Below, piece by piece: positions 14,271 to 22,398 of a DNA stretch of 57,234 nt. Below the pieces are notes generated by a model. It was not told where the DNA came from and did not search any database. It was given only the letters and a program-made list of their open reading frames with translations. Position numbers and translations under genes: made by a program. This DNA is from Butyrivibrio sp. (GTDB lineage: Bacteria; Bacillota; Clostridia; Lachnospirales; Lachnospiraceae). Location of the stretch: assembly GCA_017413105.1 (NCBI GenBank), contig JAFPVA010000231.1:1-57234 (forward strand), read 5' to 3'. The first letter of the stretch is position 1; the number at the start of each line of letters is the position of its first letter.

Positions 14271-14276
14271 TTGTTG

Positions 14277-14307
14277 GTGGAACGAGGGGACGGTTCTCTC
14301 GTTCCAC
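14277..14307. repeat. REP-like hairpin, copy 1
   Basis: GTGGAACGAG (14277-14286) and CTCGTTCCAC (14298-14307) are perfect 10-bp arms around the core GGGACGGTTCT. A T-run follows, so here it can also serve as terminator of the pullulanase gene. The same unit occurs five more times in the window and differs from copy 2 at one base. Confidence 0.9.
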
Positions 14308-14381
14308 TTTTTTCAGGTCTTTTTGCAAGGCATCTCTGTACACAGGAGACCTGAGATTTATTTTATATAAGGGCTTATGGG

Positions 14382-14463: not shown

Positions 14464-14492
14464 TTGAAAAACCAAACAAAAATAACTACTAT
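14464..14492 (+). promoter_or_regulatory. Sigma-A promoter of the PP2C/STAS island
   Basis: TTGAAA (14464-14469), 17 bases, TACTAT (14487-14492), about 65 bases upstream of the PP2C start codon. The four following genes have short gaps and no other clear promoter was seen, so it may drive the whole island. Confidence 0.6.
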
Positions 14493-14557
14493 GTTGTTAA
14501 GCTGAGCAATCTGTTCTTCGGACTCTTTACATTTTCGCATATGGCAGGAGAACTTAT

Positions 14558-16741
14558 ATGACGGAAAATGAAAATAAGAAAAATAAGAATAGCGGACTGC
14601 GGGTGAAAATCTTCAGATTGTGTATTTTACTTGTTATAGCGGCAAGCGTCGGATTTTCTATTCTGGGAATAATTCAAATAATCAATTTTCATACTATTGC
14701 AGAAAAGTCGGGAAAACGACAGATAGAAAGTGTAAAAAAAGAATCGCAGGAGTATATGATGAATCAGATCTGCGATAATATGCAGGAGGTTGCCTGGACT
14801 AGTTCACTGTGTGTTTATTATGAAATATGGATGATGCAGCATGCTGCAGAATCACTGGTAGGGCAGGTTGCAGATATTTTAGAAAATCCGGATAACTATT
14901 CAGAGCAGGAAGTCAGCGCTCCACAAAAAAAAGACGAGAATACGCTCACACTTCAGCTTCTTACTCCAAAGAATTACAGTCCTAGCGATGAAGATATGGT
15001 AACTGTAAGAAAGCTTTCTTCGCTTGGGCCGATTATGAGAGATATGATATTGGATTCTTCATTTGAGCTTCTTGATATCATTATTGCATTACCAAATGGT
15101 ATGGCTCTGGATATGGATAATCTTTCCGACATAAAGATTGCTGAGGACGGAAATCTTATTGATTACGATCCTACACTCAGACAATGGTGGAAAGGGGCCA
15201 CAACATTGAAGCACGGGTATCTTGCCAACCCAAGTTTCAGCGAGCTTCTGGAAATAGCTGTTTTGGAATATGCAGTTCCTGTATATGTAGACGATAAGCT
15301 TGTTGCAGTGGTCGAGAGTTCGTTAAGACTGGAATCGGTGCAGGAAGTGCTTGAATCCGTTGATTTTGGCGAAACAGGATTTGAAGTTCTTTTAAGCGAT
15401 GACGGATTGATCATTTACTCGCCCCAAACGACAGGGGAGTTGGCATATGATGTCAAGATGCAGTCTTATATAATGGATTCTTCGAATGAGAGGCTAAAGA
15501 CGATTCTTAAAGAGTCTCTGGACGGAATAAGTGGATTTACGGATATAACTATAGACGGTAAAGACTATTACGTTGCTTATGGCAATAAACCCACTGACTA
15601 CTGGAACTTATTTATGTTTGTTAGTAAGGAGAAAATCGAAGAGCCAACAAATAATCTTTTGGGTACACTGGACAGTGTTAATAAGGATACTATGTCAGAG
15701 TATGAAAAAAACTATCGCAATGCAGCAATTTTTCTGACAATTGCCGTGGTAGTACTTGTTATCAGTGCCACTGTAGCCGCGATTATGTTCTCCGGAAGAC
15801 TAACGGCGCCTATAAATCGCATGACTGAATCTGTTCAAAATATTTCAGGAGACAGCTTTAGTTTTAGAATTGAAGACATTTATCGGACGGGAGATGAGAT
15901 TGAGGTACTTGCGGGTACTTTTGAAGAACTTTCGGAAAGGACAAAAAAGTATATTGATGAGATTACTTCTATTACTGCGGAGAAAGAGAGGATAGGAACG
16001 GAGCTTCGCGTGGCGGCCAAAATACAGGCGGATATGCTGCCTAAGAATTTCCCTATCTTTCCTGATAGAAAGGAATTTGATCTATATGCGACCATGACAC
16101 CGGCAAAGGAGGTCGGCGGAGATTTCTATGATATGTTCCTTATAGACGATGACCATCTATGCATTGTTGTGGGGGATGTATCAGGGAAGGGAGTTCCTGC
16201 GGCACTGTTTATGGTGATTTCAAAGACAATGATCAAAAACAGAGCCCAGAGAGGTGGGAAGCCTTCAGAAATCCTCCATGATGCGAATAACAGTCTTTTC
16301 GAAGGCAATGATGAAAAAATGTTTGTTACAGTGTGGCTTGGAATACTTACGCTTTCAACCGGAGAACTCCTTCAGGCCAGTGCAGGACATGAATATCCGG
16401 TGATTCAGAGGAAGGGTGAAGACTACGAACTTGTGGAGACAGAGAATGGCTTAGTACTTGGCTACAGGAGAGGGATTAAATATAAAGATCTTAGATTTGA
16501 GCTTGCTGAAGGAGATAAGCTGTTCATGTACACTGACGGCCTTCCGGAGGCAACTAATGCGCAGAACAAGCGCCTGGGGCTAAGCGGAATGATGAGTGCC
16601 ATTAACAGGCACAAGGATGATGAAGCATCAGAGCTTCTTGCTCATGTCAAAGAGGAGGTTGATTCGTTTGTAAAGGAAGCGCCTCAGTTTGATGATCTGA
16701 CCTTGCTTATCATCAGATATAACGGTAAGCAGGTAAGTTAA
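14558..16741 (+). CDS. Membrane sensor PP2C phosphatase (SpoIIE/RsbU type) with extracellular domain and HAMP
   Basis: A 727-residue Ser/Thr phosphatase. A short basic N-terminus is followed by a membrane helix (about 20-43), an extracellular region (about 45-385) resembling dCache sensor domains (with DPTLRQWW and YYVAYGNKPTDYW), a second helix (about 388-412), and a HAMP domain (about 412-468). The SpoIIE-type PP2C domain (about 490-725) shows metal-binding Asp residues in KEVGGDFYDM, VVGDVSGKGVPAALFM and FDDLTLLIIRY. Such enzymes dephosphorylate STAS-domain proteins in partner-switching systems; a STAS gene lies two genes downstream, which supports this role. The ATG follows GGCAGGAGAAC. 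It is preceded by its own promoter. The ligand is unknown. Confidence 0.93.
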   Translation: MTENENKKNKNSGLRVKIFRLCILLVIAASVGFSILGIIQIINFHTIAEKSGKRQIESVKKESQEYMMNQICDNMQEVAWTSSLCVYYEIWMMQHAAESLVGQVADILENPDNYSEQEVSAPQKKDENTLTLQLLTPKNYSPSDEDMVTVRKLSSLGPIMRDMILDSSFELLDIIIALPNGMALDMDNLSDIKIAEDGNLIDYDPTLRQWWKGATTLKHGYLANPSFSELLEIAVLEYAVPVYVDDKLVAVVESSLRLESVQEVLESVDFGETGFEVLLSDDGLIIYSPQTTGELAYDVKMQSYIMDSSNERLKTILKESLDGISGFTDITIDGKDYYVAYGNKPTDYWNLFMFVSKEKIEEPTNNLLGTLDSVNKDTMSEYEKNYRNAAIFLTIAVVVLVISATVAAIMFSGRLTAPINRMTESVQNISGDSFSFRIEDIYRTGDEIEVLAGTFEELSERTKKYIDEITSITAEKERIGTELRVAAKIQADMLPKNFPIFPDRKEFDLYATMTPAKEVGGDFYDMFLIDDDHLCIVVGDVSGKGVPAALFMVISKTMIKNRAQRGGKPSEILHDANNSLFEGNDEKMFVTVWLGILTLSTGELLQASAGHEYPVIQRKGEDYELVETENGLVLGYRRGIKYKDLRFELAEGDKLFMYTDGLPEATNAQNKRLGLSGMMSAINRHKDDEASELLAHVKEEVDSFVKEAPQFDDLTLLIIRYNGKQVS

Positions 16742-16767
16742 AGAGGGTTGCGAAAGGAGAGGGCAAG

Positions 16768-17610
16768 GTGAATATCATTGAGCTTGATGATAGTAATATC
16801 GAAATATTCGAAGACTATATCGGTGCTGATATTGCAGAGAATATCACAAGGGCTTTCTATAAGGGAATTATTGCCAGCGAAGATTTTATGGTAAAGGGTG
16901 GAATGCTTTGGAACTATAAGATGGTCGAAAAAGATTGCGTAAGCGTGATTGAATGGTTTAAGGCGTCAGACGTGAATGTGGCTGAGGAACTTTTTTCCTA
17001 TTACAGGGAAGCGATAAAAGAAATGGAAGTGAAAAGGTCTGATATTGTTGTGCCTGCAACAAAGGATAAGACGGAAAAGGAAATACTAAAGCAGGTCGGT
17101 TTTACAGTAAGGCTATCCGAAAGCGACAACATAATCGTGACACTTTCAGAACTCTCATCCATGCCGCTTATGAAAGACAAAAAGATTCCGAAGGGTGTTA
17201 CAACTCTTGGAGAGATAATGGTGAGGCAGTACAAAAATGGAGCTGCAAGATGCGTAGCTGTCAATAAAAAGGGTTTATGTGAGGACCTTAGTTTACTTCC
17301 TGTTTCGTTTTTTGAACCTGACGTATCGGTCTGTTATATCAATAAAGATGGGGAAATAATGGGATTTTTACTGTTTCATATGCTCACTTCAGGCATGCTT
17401 TCTATTCAGCTTATGGTCTGTCTTGATAAGGACGTAGGTGTTGTGCTTCCCGGAATGATGAGAAAATTTGTATCTGCGATGGAAGAAAACTATCCGCCTG
17501 ACACGAAGATTTTATTAAATCGTCACAATGAAGCATCTCTGCTGCTTTCTGAAAAACTCTTTCCAAGAGGCTTTGGAATACCGGTATATGCCGGGAGCAA
17601 AAATGAGTAG
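16768..17610 (+). CDS. Unrecognised 280-residue protein, possibly GNAT-like fold
   Basis: No family is recognised with confidence. The start is GTG 16768 behind AAGGAGAGG. It is a soluble, mixed alpha/beta protein without signal peptide. The C-terminal third (about 190-275: VCYINKDGEIMGFLLFHML, then a strand, a helix and LLNRHNEAS) has the rhythm of an acetyltransferase (GNAT) fold. A tandem-GNAT arrangement is possible but unproven. It sits 26 bases after the phosphatase gene and before the STAS gene, so it is likely co-expressed with the switch. Confidence 0.75.
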   Translation: MNIIELDDSNIEIFEDYIGADIAENITRAFYKGIIASEDFMVKGGMLWNYKMVEKDCVSVIEWFKASDVNVAEELFSYYREAIKEMEVKRSDIVVPATKDKTEKEILKQVGFTVRLSESDNIIVTLSELSSMPLMKDKKIPKGVTTLGEIMVRQYKNGAARCVAVNKKGLCEDLSLLPVSFFEPDVSVCYINKDGEIMGFLLFHMLTSGMLSIQLMVCLDKDVGVVLPGMMRKFVSAMEENYPPDTKILLNRHNEASLLLSEKLFPRGFGIPVYAGSKNE

Positions 17611-17692
17611 CCCAAGCAATCGGAACTGGCATGCTAAAAGCGCATGAGTCAGATTGGTGAGAATTTTTTTTGAAATAAATAGAGAGGTAACT

Positions 17693-17995
17693 ATGGCTGT
17701 GATAAAAAAAGAGATTACAGGAAAAATCATGAACATTGCAATCGGTGGAGCGTTGAACTCACAATCGGCTCCTGAACTTGGAGAAATCATAAAGGAATCT
17801 GCAGCTGATGTGACAGAGATTAACTTTGACTTTGCTGATCTTGAATATCTGACAAGTGCAGGACTTAGAGTGATCCTTACTGCGCAGCAGGAAATGGATG
17901 ATAAGGACGGCGCCATGACCATTAAAAATGTATCTCAGGATATCATGGATATTTTTAAGATGACAGGATTTTTAAGTATACTTACGATTGTCTGA
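17693..17995 (+). CDS. STAS-domain anti-sigma-factor antagonist-like protein
   Basis: 100 residues, the usual size of SpoIIAA/RsbV-like proteins. It has the strand LNIAIGG-like start, the INFDFADLEYLTSAGLRVIL core with the conserved phosphorylatable Ser (Ser55), and a C-terminal helix. ATG 17693 follows AGAGAGG. In known systems a kinase phosphorylates this Ser and a PP2C phosphatase removes the phosphate; the phosphatase is encoded two genes upstream, but no RsbW/SpoIIAB-like kinase and no sigma factor is present in the island. The target may be elsewhere or non-canonical. Confidence 0.9.
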   Translation: MAVIKKEITGKIMNIAIGGALNSQSAPELGEIIKESAADVTEINFDFADLEYLTSAGLRVILTAQQEMDDKDGAMTIKNVSQDIMDIFKMTGFLSILTIV

Positions 17996-18058
17996 TATTG
18001 AGCAAGGCATATGAAAATGTGCATGACTTCAGATTATTAGCACATAAGGAGAAAGACT

Positions 18059-21000
18059 ATGCTGGAACATAGCAGGATTGATAATATTCAAAAGAATAAT
18101 AGTTTGGAAGAGAGCCGTATTAGTGTTCATGGAAATATGGAGAGTGAAAATTCCTTCATGGACCATTCGATGCTTAGTGGCCTGGAAGAGCAAGACGATA
18201 GACAGCATAAAGAAAATGAAGTGCACCTGACTGAAATTGAGAGCCTGATTATCAGCATTCTCGATGATAACAAAAGAATGGCGCGCTTTGGCAAGGTTAA
18301 AGCAGCAGCTGCGCTTTATAATCAGGCAACGACAGAAAAAGAGAAGATAAACAGTCTTTCTGCCATCCGTGATAGTGCGGCGTATTATCTTATTGAGAGA
18401 AAAAGATCATCTGATCTGGCCAGAAAAACTATGTGCGAGAGGCTTATTCTGAAAATAGATGCGTATGCTGCAGCAAATGCTATTTCATTGGAACATAGCA
18501 CATCTTATATGCTTGATGGAAGGCATATGACCTATGAAGAGATAGATAATGAGATTCGTATTGCACATAGTCTTACAGGTGCAGGGCCGCTTTCTGAGGT
18601 TACAAAAGAAAGGCGTGACAACTTCAGAAAAAAAATACAGGACGTAAAGCTTGCTAATAGCTACAAGGCAGATATAGAAAAGTGGAAAAGCAGTAAGCGA
18701 GCATTTCTTGACCAGCAGAAGCAGCAGCTTGGGATTGGCCAAAGTGTAAATGAAGGTTTTGATGCTATCTGCATTGATACGATTCTATGGTATGGAAGAG
18801 CATATAACCGCACCGATGAAGCTATGGCGACAATGTACAGCCGTCTGAAGATTGATGATGATAAGGGTAATCTCCCGGCCAGGATAAAGGCAAGGCAGAT
18901 TGAGATTATACTTGCAGATATCATGTCATGGAACATGAATGATTTTACATTTGGAAAGACGGATGATTTCCTTCACAGAAGGGATAAAGGAGAGTCTCAA
19001 AAAGAGCATTTTATGAAGCTGTACAGTAAGCTTCAGCTCGCCAAGAACGCAGACATCCTGCTGGGGGAAGTGCTTCGTATGCATAACGACAGCGTCTGCG
19101 ATACGCCTTTGGATTTCTCGGAGAAAACGCTTGAGGAAATGAAGGACAGACTTAAGATATACAAGGAGATTGAGAAAGACTATTCTGAGAGGCTTTCAAT
19201 CATGTCTTCTCCTTATTATGCACTTTTGCAGCAGTCTGACATTGAAAGTGCCATGACAGAAAAAAGTGATGCCAAGCTTATCGCAATGAAACAGGAAAAA
19301 GAAATACCGGGGACCCGGATTAAAAAGAAGGTTCCGCCTGAGTTTACTGACTATATCGATAAGCTGCAAGCAAAGAAAAAACGTTGGGATACAACAAAGA
19401 TAAGTGATTATTTCACCAGGAATACCAAAATTGAGAAGTCTCTGGATGGACTTCTTGAACGCAAAGGTATTAAGGTGGAGGAGAGGAAAAACCGTTTTGT
19501 CAGAGAGAGGGATGCGCTTGACAGTATTTTTGCCAGGGACCTTTCAGAATTCAAACAGGAAGAGATTGAAGGCTTCAGATCAGAACTGAAAGAACATATT
19601 GTCAAAGAGGCCCCTGAGGTTGAGAGGCGGAATATAGACGCTTCAATGCGGGCAGTTCAGGGAAGAAGCTTTGTTCCGGTCGAAAAGCCTGCTGGTAGAA
19701 TGGGCTTTTGGGGTACACTTAAGAACTATGGGCTTTCCGGCGCAAGATGGATGGTTGGAGCAACTGTCGGAAAAGTCGGTACTGTTGTCGGTATGTTCCT
19801 TGGAATGTCAGGACAGCTTCAGGAAAAAGAAAAGGTTAAAGCTGCACAGAAGAAACGAATACATGGCATAGTACCCGGCACAAAAGATGAGAAATTTGCT
19901 GATGAACATATAACAGACAGTGATGATGAGCAAAATATCCTATATGATATTCGAAGGGCACCTCTTGTCTGGGAAAAACTGACGGCAGGAGATCCTGATG
20001 ATCCTCCGGAAGTAACCATAATGTCCAAGCAGTCGATTGTCGGAAGCCGCGCAACGGATCCCTATGGGGGAATGGGGCATGCCATGATAGGGCTGGCCTA
20101 CAGCAGGTTTAATAAGGCTACGGGACGAAAAGAAAGATACAATTTAAGGATTGGTTTCCACCCGGGAGGTGGAGCGCAGAAGATGGCCAACCATGTAATG
20201 ATGACCGCGAATGCGTTGATGCAGGGGCAGGTCAGAGATGACTCAGATTTTGTTTACCATATTGCCAGGAAGTATACTGTAAAGCCTGGTGATATAAACA
20301 GAATCCTTAGAGCTGCAGAAACGTATGCCGATGGTGGCTACGGATATTATACCAGAAACTGTACTACCTTTGTTGTAGATATGGCAAAGCTGGCCAATAT
20401 ACCAATCGCTGATGAGACCGGTCAGGATGCTATTAGTTTTCAGGGTCTTGTTTCAAATAGTGCTAATGTTTTGATGGGCGGTGCAAATTCAGCTTATTAT
20501 CTTGCTGCCAATAACATTGCGGACAAATTCCAGACAAAGGATAAGTCCTATCAGAATTATGGTCAGAAGCTGACTACCAAAGAAGATCTTGATCGATATT
20601 ATGACACGGCCCAAAACAATACCCTTATTAAAAAAGGATATTCGCCGGGTGCTTTGGGCGAAGATCTACGAGAAGATAAAAAGGGCGAGCTTTCAGCATT
20701 TAATGGGGAGAGCCAAGAGGTTCCTGAATTCGACGATATGGGGGAAGTTGAGAGGTTTGGCTCAGACTTCCAGAAGAGGCTTGAAAACGCAGGGGAAGAA
20801 CTTGCAGCCAAGATTAAGGAAAGACTCCGGGAACAGAACTTATTGCAGGAAGAGGATGAGCAAAGCTTGGAGTTTTTGAAAGACGGCGTAATTCTCACAG
20901 ATGTATTGGGGAAAAATGGAAACCAGATACCCGGAAAAGTGAAGGACAAGCATAGAGTTATACGCGAAAAAATGAAAGCCATAAATAAGTTCTATGCTGA

Positions 21001-21892
21001 AAAACTAAAAAATGATTCGCTTTTAAATGAACCCTTGATGAAATACTTAAGTCTCTGTGAAGCTACTCTTAACTTCCTTGATAATGCATATCGGGAAAAT
21101 ATCAGCTATGAGTATCAGAGCGAAATGGGTGGACTGTTTGAGAACTATGAGACAGATGAAACAATAAAACTTAAAAGGGTTGGAAATCCGGAGATTAAGA
21201 TCAGTATAAGCCCTGAATTGTACTATGGGTATGTGAAGCTTGGAAAATCCGGACCTCAGATTGTCAGAGACTATAATGAATTACAAGAGCTTAGCCAGCT
21301 TTCGTCTGCGGAAAAAACTGATGAGCAGTCGAAGAGACAAAACGCTTTGTACAGAGAATATAGAACAGCATGTGACTTTGGTCGTGCGGGTCGCTTTAAT
21401 CTGTATAAGGATGAGTATGGGTCAAAAGACATAGAGTATGCTTTTAAAACACTTCCTGATGCGGAAATGCAAACAGAGAGTGGGGAGCAGCTTGAAGGAG
21501 ATTTCTTTACATTCCACAGCCCTTCATGTATCCAGCAGGCAGTTATCATGGGAAAAGTTATTAATGGGATTGACACTATTAATTTTAACTATCTGCACTC
21601 AAACGACGCTGTCATTGCAGATATTGATAATCATTTGAAGGCAAAGCTGTTGGGAAATGAGTCTACTATAAAGAGTATAGTGACTTCATATATTGATGGG
21701 AAAGAAGAACAGTCATCGGATGCTCTGGCGCTAAAACTATTAAATTCACCAATTGCAGCATGTGTTAATTCGGCCTTGAAAAAGCTAAATTTTAGTTCAG
21801 GCCGAAGGAACATAATTTCTTATCACATGGGGAACATGACGCAAACCCGTGAGCTGCTGACGAATATCATAGATGGTGTGCGGAGGGTATAA
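18059..21892 (+). CDS. Giant protein with a permuted papain-like (His...Asn-Cys) motif
   Basis: 1277 residues, no named family recognised. ATG 18059 follows AAGGAG. No signal peptide is visible. Residues 1-60 are polar. Residues about 60-550 are mostly charged helices, including the AAYYLIERKRSSDLARKTMCER segment. Residues about 556-585 are a Gly-rich hydrophobic stretch with repeated GxxxG spacing that could enter a membrane. Residues about 640-800 hold GMGHAMIGL (His674) and, 94 residues later, RNCTTFVVD (Asn767-Cys768). This His-then-NC order is that of circularly permuted NlpC/P60-, LRAT- or DUF4105-like folds, which are hydrolases or acyltransferases. Residues about 880-1277 are again helical and charged. 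It lies in the middle of the phosphatase/STAS island, 63 bases after the STAS gene. An effector or surface-targeted enzyme exported by a non-classical route is one possibility; an internal target of the switch is another. Confidence 0.8.
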   Translation: MLEHSRIDNIQKNNSLEESRISVHGNMESENSFMDHSMLSGLEEQDDRQHKENEVHLTEIESLIISILDDNKRMARFGKVKAAAALYNQATTEKEKINSLSAIRDSAAYYLIERKRSSDLARKTMCERLILKIDAYAAANAISLEHSTSYMLDGRHMTYEEIDNEIRIAHSLTGAGPLSEVTKERRDNFRKKIQDVKLANSYKADIEKWKSSKRAFLDQQKQQLGIGQSVNEGFDAICIDTILWYGRAYNRTDEAMATMYSRLKIDDDKGNLPARIKARQIEIILADIMSWNMNDFTFGKTDDFLHRRDKGESQKEHFMKLYSKLQLAKNADILLGEVLRMHNDSVCDTPLDFSEKTLEEMKDRLKIYKEIEKDYSERLSIMSSPYYALLQQSDIESAMTEKSDAKLIAMKQEKEIPGTRIKKKVPPEFTDYIDKLQAKKKRWDTTKISDYFTRNTKIEKSLDGLLERKGIKVEERKNRFVRERDALDSIFARDLSEFKQEEIEGFRSELKEHIVKEAPEVERRNIDASMRAVQGRSFVPVEKPAGRMGFWGTLKNYGLSGARWMVGATVGKVGTVVGMFLGMSGQLQEKEKVKAAQKKRIHGIVPGTKDEKFADEHITDSDDEQNILYDIRRAPLVWEKLTAGDPDDPPEVTIMSKQSIVGSRATDPYGGMGHAMIGLAYSRFNKATGRKERYNLRIGFHPGGGAQKMANHVMMTANALMQGQVRDDSDFVYHIARKYTVKPGDINRILRAAETYADGGYGYYTRNCTTFVVDMAKLANIPIADETGQDAISFQGLVSNSANVLMGGANSAYYLAANNIADKFQTKDKSYQNYGQKLTTKEDLDRYYDTAQNNTLIKKGYSPGALGEDLREDKKGELSAFNGESQEVPEFDDMGEVERFGSDFQKRLENAGEELAAKIKERLREQNLLQEEDEQSLEFLKDGVILTDVLGKNGNQIPGKVKDKHRVIREKMKAINKFYAEKLKNDSLLNEPLMKYLSLCEATLNFLDNAYRENISYEYQSEMGGLFENYETDETIKLKRVGNPEIKISISPELYYGYVKLGKSGPQIVRDYNELQELSQLSSAEKTDEQSKRQNALYREYRTACDFGRAGRFNLYKDEYGSKDIEYAFKTLPDAEMQTESGEQLEGDFFTFHSPSCIQQAVIMGKVINGIDTINFNYLHSNDAVIADIDNHLKAKLLGNESTIKSIVTSYIDGKEEQSSDALALKLLNSPIAACVNSALKKLNFSSGRRNIISYHMGNMTQTRELLTNIIDGVRRV

Positions 21893-21915
21893 TCTAAAAG
21901 AGGGATTGTAAATTG

Positions 21916-22398
21916 ATGAAGACGATCACATATAAACAGATTACTGAAAAAGATCTTTCTGAATATGAAGCTTTTATGCTTCCCATGATCTACGAAGAGC
22001 TTTTGCAGCAGTCATGTATAGAGGAAAACTACATTGCACTTGCTGCAATAGACGAAGACACTGCTCTGGGTGTTGTTATTGCTGAACTTGAGGATGGGGG
22101 AGATATAAATCTTCTCAGTATTTGGACAGCTATGGATAGAAGAAGAGAGGGGATAGCTTCAGGTCTTTTGCAAAAGATGACAGAAGTAGCCAGAGCGCTT
22201 TACAAATGGGATGATGGTCAATATGGAGATGACATAACACTTAAGACCATGTACTGCCTTGATGACAGATATCGCAAGATTTATGAAGCATGGCTTGAGA
22301 AGAATGGTTTTACGGATTTCATGGTTATGCGCGACGAAACAGAGGATAGGCCTGATATCTGTGGCGCAACAGCGGAGATCCATTTCTATAGGTGGTAA
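21916..22398 (+). CDS. GNAT-family N-acetyltransferase
   Basis: 160 residues with the acetyl-CoA-binding rhythm of GNAT enzymes: a strand with ALGVVIAELEDGG, the LLSIWTAMDRRREGIASGLLQKM loop-helix (the RRREGIAS segment corresponds to the Q/RxxGxG/A pyrophosphate loop), and a C-terminal KIYEAWLEKNGF turn. The substrate is unknown. ATG 21916 is chosen; a TTG sits directly before it in frame. It ends the island, 23 bases after the giant gene, and a REP-like hairpin follows its stop. Confidence 0.82.
   Translation: MKTITYKQITEKDLSEYEAFMLPMIYEELLQQSCIEENYIALAAIDEDTALGVVIAELEDGGDINLLSIWTAMDRRREGIASGLLQKMTEVARALYKWDDGQYGDDITLKTMYCLDDRYRKIYEAWLEKNGFTDFMVMRDETEDRPDICGATAEIHFYRW

Follow-up and report, generated by a model that had tools for sequence, protein, structure and literature searches.

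A phosphatase/STAS island of Butyrivibrio sp. as a possible cargo cassette of a contractile injection system

Gene content of the island

The window analysed here is the whole of a 57,234-nucleotide stretch (contig JAFPVA010000231.1, positions 1 to 57,234; C198 below) of a Butyrivibrio sp. assembly (GCA_017413105.1; 4.45 Mb, completeness 94.9%, contamination 7.3%). Our subject is an island of five genes within it, encoding a PP2C phosphatase, a STAS protein, two GNAT-type proteins and a giant protein, and its possible relation to contractile injection systems (CISs). The five open reading frames (ORFs) lie in a row on the + strand between positions 14558 and 22398, with intergenic gaps of 20-63 bp as called. 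A first-pass annotation had described this row as a dCache-HAMP-PP2C phosphatase, an unknown protein, a STAS protein, a 1277-residue protein and a GNAT protein separated by short gaps; the ORF listing and Pfam confirmed all five, and the gaps are indeed short. The “clear promoter” it had placed at 14464 fared less well. This is 1 of 22 matches in the window, where 20.8 are expected by chance; since the matches are no more numerous than chance, the promoter was rejected as evidence for an operon. A terminator-like stem-loop on the + strand (14276-14308; 15 pairs, T tail) separates the island from the preceding gene; such sites are near the chance level overall (8 versus 7.1).

Gene 1 (14558-16741, + strand, 727 aa) encodes a membrane phosphatase with two hydrophobic segments. 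Its Pfam matches to SpoIIE (2e-46) and HAMP (2e-6) are both above cut-off and that to dCache_1 (2e-11, 44.1 bits) is slightly under the curated cut-off of 45; a match to the SiaA profile (E 6e-18) falls far below the cut-off of that profile. Gene 3, called as 17654-17995 with a TTG start, probably begins at the ATG at 17693, judging from the AGAGAGG, a sequence like a ribosome-binding site, in front of it; this would give a protein of 100 aa (17693-17995, + strand) and a preceding gap of 82 bp. The STAS domain (Pfam 6e-11; also NCBIfam) is of the anti-sigma-factor-antagonist type with a conserved SAGL motif, and includes a serine that presumably is the phospho-acceptor. The length of 100 aa resembles that of the STAS proteins of CIS loci.

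Gene 2 (16768-17610, + strand, 280 aa, GTG start) has no Pfam match up to E 1. Its AlphaFold2 model (pLDDT 80.5, pTM 0.54; domain arrangement uncertain) returned GNAT-superfamily proteins, tandem GNATs among them, as top Foldseek matches, and, of the 50 matches listed, 7wx5 scored best over the whole chain (TMq 0.53). On this model, together with the family profile described below, gene 2 is a two-domain GNAT-fold protein. Gene 5 (21913-22398, + strand, 161 aa, TTG start) is a single-domain GNAT with an intact RRxGxA-type motif; it matches Acetyltransf_1 (8e-6) as well as the tandem-GNAT profiles (E 3e-16 and 3e-14). Because gene 2 has a tandem GNAT fold, the earlier description of two acetyltransferase-like genes in the island holds, as far as the fold is concerned.

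Gene 4 (18059-21892, + strand) encodes the giant of 1277 aa, the N-terminus of which is not signal-peptide-like. Residues 87-544 (18317-19690) form a module with an SPYY motif that is shared with relatives (profile E 6e-101). Further along, at approximately residues 655-800 (20021-20458), a His-then-Cys pattern is present, with motifs beginning at residues 673 and 767, that could belong to a permuted NlpC/papain-like domain. As a short piece this region gave just one Pfam match, a weak one to Lnb_N (E 0.032), its single-sequence AlphaFold2 fold failed (pLDDT 34.7), PDB sequence searches returned one chance-level match and otherwise none, and a scan of viral contigs gave no match. The label “papain-like” that had been given to the giant is therefore unproven. 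A single-protein scan of the genome-contig collection with the giant also gave no match.

Tandem GNAT-fold proteins, giants and contractile injection systems

Relatives of the giant were sought with an N-terminal profile and found in 8/397 genomes of the family (E <= 0.001, own genome included) and in 9/51 of the genus (worst best-E 3e-7). In the regions retrieved, the common module, SPYY motif included, covers some 300-450 residues, either close to the N-terminus or at a more internal position; outside it the giants differ. Pfam identified a calpain-type Peptidase_C2 domain in the L052 giant (4e-15), ABC1 kinase in those of L043 (4e-13) and L044 (1.5e-16) and a PI3/4-kinase-like domain, barely above cut-off, in that of L048 (3e-6), while at E <= 0.01 Pfam recognised nothing in 8 of the 12 giants and giant-like proteins to which it was applied. 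No hydrophobic signal is seen at the N-terminus of any of six large proteins tested. The giants of genomes G160 and G328 lie at L015 3982-10548, which resembles the L014 giant along most of the sequence, and at L043 4283-10981.

For 19/25 giant genes or pieces, a set that includes the near-identical pairs L052/L053 and L060/L061, a tandem GNAT is encoded on the same strand no more than 3 kb away. The tandem GNAT neighbour of L055_14728 is split between L055 and L056; it was judged by position and stands outside the 19/25. Six repeating or overlapping loci (L177-L181, L185) were dropped from the GNAT-family and giant-adjacency counts. Conversely, 38/60 tandem GNATs are adjoined within 250 bp on the same strand by a gene of at least 600 aa and 4 have no neighbour there, while 173/738 other genes reach that length; this supports a pairing with cargo only mildly, because the larger of the two neighbours was counted. 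Another 10 large proteins encoded beside tandem GNATs were all without a Pfam domain (E <= 0.01).

The acetyl-CoA pyrophosphate loop motif, which we take to be [QR]xxGx[GA], is missing from the searched part of domain 1 in 34/60 family members, gene 2 among them, and from domain 2 in 59/60; the domain-1 motif is kept in 26/60. This absence from gene 2 and from domain 1 of the other members weakens, without rejecting, the suggestion that acetylation replaces part of the usual control of a partner switch; gene 5 keeps the motif. With the tandem-GNAT alignment A4, a profile search of the genome-contig collection gave six loci, all titled Butyrivibrio; L177-L180 are the same contigs as L053, L052, L054 and L057, and the match of L181 covers only 33 residues. 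The number of copies can be high, with at least 28 profile matches, some of them partial, in G439.

Several further observations were made around tandem GNATs. At L169 8886-9377 a single or truncated GNAT lies, like gene 5, near tandem GNATs and cargo-like genes, and in G438 (L174, G438:C3) some tandem GNATs stand beside genes of 684 and 759 aa. A mutually homologous family of around 345 aa, with hydrophobic-looking N-termini and no solid Pfam match, also adjoins tandem GNATs (L159 8726-9802, L160 9556-10599, L161 4048-5097, L163 6183-7193, L170 6681-7703, L171 8826-9872 and L172 8799-9896), and is possibly a third partner, as anchor or immunity protein.

The window genome, as judged from its sequence, carries a CIS on another contig, C243, with STAS, HATPase and PP2C genes of its own; this link of the island could not be seen in the first-pass annotation. 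Encoded on C243 are a sheath, a tube, two baseplate J proteins (baseplate J being 48% identical to the G444 baseplate query), gp25, a Tail_P2_I relative and an AAA ATPase, together with STAS, HATPase_c, an ABC ATPase and an SH3 protein. Genes of the same orientation come next on it, for two large proteins, a further large one of 1067 aa, another AAA ATPase, a SpoIIE phosphatase and a protein of 2527 aa. The assignments come from profile matches: the sheath (L183 12226-13923) to PF04984 (1e-14) and PF17482 (8e-16), the gp19-like inner tube to PF06841 (3e-31) and CIS5_fam (4e-19), the baseplate to Baseplate_J, gp25 and TIGR02243 (3e-28), and the ATPase to AAA (7e-29); the CIS5, VgrG_rel and TIGR02243 matches are all under the curated cut-off.

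In other genomes tandem GNATs and CIS genes are joined physically. In G444 (L055/L056), giants and the genes for an AAA protein, an Ntox11 protein (2e-35) and an alpha/beta hydrolase are interspersed with tandem GNATs, and this array adjoins a CIS locus with baseplate J, Tail_P2_I, STAS, ABC, HATPase, SH3 and AAA ATPase genes and then sheath and tube (L118, the other half of the L056 CIS locus). A tandem GNAT adjoins the CIS AAA ATPase in L120, and in L175 one lies shortly 5' of the sheath gene. At least 14 of the 30 genomes that have tandem GNATs as well as a CIS place one of the former no more than 20 kb from baseplate J, in 14/14 on the same strand. The figure is a lower bound from the tandem-GNAT matches listed; those on baseplate contigs were taken, with some more distant ones omitted.

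Co-occurrence was assessed with cut-offs that we set ourselves (E <= 1e-17 for a tandem GNAT and E < 1e-100 for a close CIS). Among the 397 genomes of the family, 8 have giants, 18 a close CIS and 6 both (Fisher p 9e-8), and 14 of the 17 with a full-length tandem GNAT have a close CIS (p 9e-20). In the 51 genomes of the genus, all 9 with giants are among the 18 with a CIS (p 1.6e-5), as are 17 of the 20 with a tandem GNAT (p 1e-9). The family association persists if any CIS match is accepted (40/397; p 6e-13 for tandem GNATs, 2e-5 for giants), and it spans 13 genus labels. When the exceptions were rechecked for a sheath gene, one was found in G344 and G414 (the G414 match being partial) and none in G023, G146 and G399, which are 60-68% complete.

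The phosphatase, the STAS protein and candidate kinases

The pair of PP2C phosphatase and STAS protein claimed in the first-pass annotation is borne out by the SpoIIE and STAS domains of genes 1 and 3, and this combination recurs. Full-length relatives of gene 1 lie near tandem GNATs in L048 (48% identity), in contig C275 of the same genome (L185, 35%) and in L176 (35%), and the set of Cache-PP2C, STAS and tandem GNAT is found again in two of these: C275 encodes a tandem GNAT, a 2446-aa protein, STAS and Cache-PP2C on one strand, and L176 (Butyrivibrio sp. UBA3740) STAS, a tandem GNAT and Cache-PP2C. A PP2C gene also adjoins tandem GNATs in L048, L049, L165 and L172. The giant is not always found apart from such genes, PP2C and/or STAS lying near it in the window, L048 and L049. 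Furthermore, STAS is present in 15 of the 16 distinct CIS loci fetched, the exception being L119. In most of these loci an ABC ATPase, FtsE-like by eye (L110 11890-12564 and relatives), lies between STAS and HATPase_c.

The window genome has 10 SpoIIE and 7 STAS genes in total. Contigs with a tandem GNAT or CIS (C198, C275 and C243) account for 3/10 and 3/7 of these, and the remaining SpoIIE genes, including the SpoIIE/STAS pairs of C47 and C216, are on other contigs. C47 bears a trio of SpoIIE, HATPase_c_2 and STAS, and its STAS is the closest to the window STAS among 20 others compared (42% over 99 positions); the CIS STAS proteins share just 20-32% identity with the window STAS. The HATPase_c beside the STAS gene of the C243 CIS is a membrane protein in which an ATPase domain and no histidine-phosphorylation domain was recognised.

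It had been stated that the kinase and sigma factor of a normal partner switch are absent. Among the five island genes neither an RsbW/SpoIIAB-type kinase nor a sigma factor was found in the ORFs or by Pfam, a paired sigma factor not having been searched for elsewhere. The absence of a kinase therefore stands for the island; it does not extend to the cell, which has HATPase_c_2 on C47 and HATPase_c at the CIS, and one of these probably supplies the kinase in trans. Small proteins that adjoin STAS genes at L184 8012-8659 and L187 9364-9912 look by eye like degenerate RsbW-type partners; Pfam gave no match for them.

Interpretation and comparison with known systems

With a probability of about 0.6, we take the island to be a dispersed cargo cassette of a CIS, comprising a giant effector, its adaptor (gene 2) and a Cache-PP2C plus STAS input to a switch. 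We infer from linkage and co-occurrence that a CIS would load and deliver the giant; the binding of the adaptor and the direction of regulation are proposed in the same spirit. The giant would be a cytoplasmic cargo in which the shared module is combined with a further activity of its own, and gene 2 its cognate, non-catalytic adaptor or chaperone that would keep the cargo ready and dock it on the CIS encoded by C243. The Cache domain would bind a signal from outside and activate the phosphatase, which would dephosphorylate the STAS protein. This in turn may feed the switch borne by the CIS itself, with STAS, HATPase_c and ABC ATPase in the core and PP2C in the same gene run; alternatively, its target could be the resident RsbW-like kinase of C47. 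The output of the switch would set expression, loading or firing. A wider claim would be that tandem GNATs, often lacking acetyl-CoA binding, constitute a novel kind of adaptor for the cargo of Gram-positive gut-bacterial CISs, with loading or firing set by a STAS/PP2C/HATPase switch and giant, partly eukaryote-like effectors (calpain-, PI3/4-kinase- and ABC1-kinase-like) delivered, perhaps into gut or rumen protozoa or fungi; we hold this only tentatively, at slightly worse than even odds. That the eukaryotic-like cargo domains hint at protozoan or fungal targets is speculation.

A number of observations weigh against the cargo-cassette reading. No CIS gene was found on the contig of the window in the stretches scanned, nor a tandem GNAT on the CIS contig of its genome, which is one of 9/30 genomes with no tandem GNAT on the baseplate contig among the matches listed. 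Three of the five contigs of this genome with a full-length tandem GNAT (C313, C51 and C70) have neither PP2C nor STAS. The fetched stretch also contains no PP2C/STAS neighbour for the majority of the 25 giant genes or pieces, so the pairing of these genes with the giant, while no accident, is optional. The giants L015, L043, L044, L047 and L050 have no tandem-GNAT neighbour, and those of G160 and G328 lack a CIS match too, sheath included; in these two genomes the module may serve some other purpose or be a remnant. G438, 99% complete, has at least 6 tandem-GNAT matches and neither a baseplate nor a sheath match, and G422 has sheath and baseplate and no tandem GNAT among the matches listed. 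In the window giant, the C-terminal part has no identified domain and Pfam revealed no DUF4157 leader up to E 1. Finally, near-identical genomes contribute some of their genes twice, and incomplete assemblies are numerous among the genus genomes with matches.

The co-occurrence tests treat genomes as independent, with no correction for phylogeny, and the giants and many tandem GNATs are off the CIS contig, as would be seen if giants and CIS were merely co-inherited through a variable genome or shared lineage with no functional coupling. We regard this as the least likely of the alternatives, given the close same-strand linkage in at least 14/30 genomes, the mixed CIS-cargo contig of G444 and the spread over 13 genus labels. 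Barely less improbable is the proposal of the first-pass annotation that a self-contained partner switch acts directly on the giant with no relation to a CIS: PP2C, STAS and giant do share one operon-like run, but the giant family goes together with CIS genomes and tandem GNATs, mostly without PP2C/STAS neighbours, and kinases are encoded elsewhere in the genome.

Two other explanations concern the tandem GNATs themselves. They could be working acetyltransferases that modify the giant, activating or silencing it, rather than loading adaptors, and their fold, the domain-1 motif retained by a minority of members and the motif of gene 5 would suit such a role. Against this, the motif is missing from gene 2, from most members in the searched stretch of domain 1 and from nearly all in domain 2, and tandem GNATs with and without it both adjoin giants; we consider catalysis unlikely, albeit the strongest of the alternatives. 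Less likely still is that they are immunity proteins in polymorphic toxin-immunity pairs. The adjacent cargo is diverse, including the Ntox11 protein, and some genomes have many divergent copies; however, a single conserved fold is paired with unrelated cargo domains, and the copies beside the CIS AAA ATPase (L120) and 5' of the sheath (L175) are placed as expected of an adaptor.

If the cargo-cassette reading is true, a group of gut Firmicutes has an injection machine with a sizeable and recognisable cargo repertoire, which a single tandem-GNAT profile could list genome by genome, and whose targets (protozoa, fungi, host or rival bacteria) are directly testable. A new fold would join the known CIS and type VI secretion system (T6SS) adaptors, and some orphan PP2C/STAS pairs would gain a concrete role as a switch on a machine and not on a sigma factor. 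A CIS has reportedly been described from human gut microbiomes, as a Bacteroidales system. In the open PMC literature, as covered by titles and passages and with closed-access papers and preprints outside its scope, no description of a GNAT-type adaptor was found. The same literature gave nothing on contractile injection in Butyrivibrio and, for contractile injection with GNAT, only work on wall-deficient Streptomyces cells; for Lachnospiraceae the system was found as a term only in the reference list of PMC10266427.

As had been noted at the outset, the island matches no system that can be named, in that it fits no single named family. With the Rsb/SpoIIA switches and SiaABC it shares a SpoIIE phosphatase and a STAS protein with a phospho-acceptor-like serine, but its five genes lack kinase and sigma factor and STAS is also built into the CIS locus. 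The tandem GNATs 2wpw, 7q3a and VipF (7wx5) likewise have two GNAT domains per chain; gene 2 differs in its ~10% identity, the missing acetyl-CoA motif and the context of a cargo-like giant. T6SS effector adaptors include DUF4123/Tap, EagR and DUF2169. As with these and with DUF4157 of extracellular CISs (eCISs), a small gene stands beside a large cargo gene and also at the locus of the machine; the fold of gene 2 is instead a tandem GNAT, and by this comparison the likeness is functional and not homologous. For DUF4157, the passages of PMC11297309 suggest a chaperone role and place eCIS toxins often near DUF4157 genes, the domain itself not being in the toxin.

The comparators for the machine, extracellular or cytoplasmic, are Afp/PVC, MACs and the Streptomyces CIS. 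Unlike in these, the core here has STAS, HATPase_c, an ABC ATPase and an SH3 membrane protein, and the cargo-like genes, with a giant that has no DUF4157 match, are dispersed in tandem-GNAT islands. In common with them, the cargo-like genes are separate, with no signal peptides in the six tested, and sheath, gp19-type tube, two baseplate J genes, gp25, a Tail_P2_I-like gene and an AAA ATPase lie in one run.

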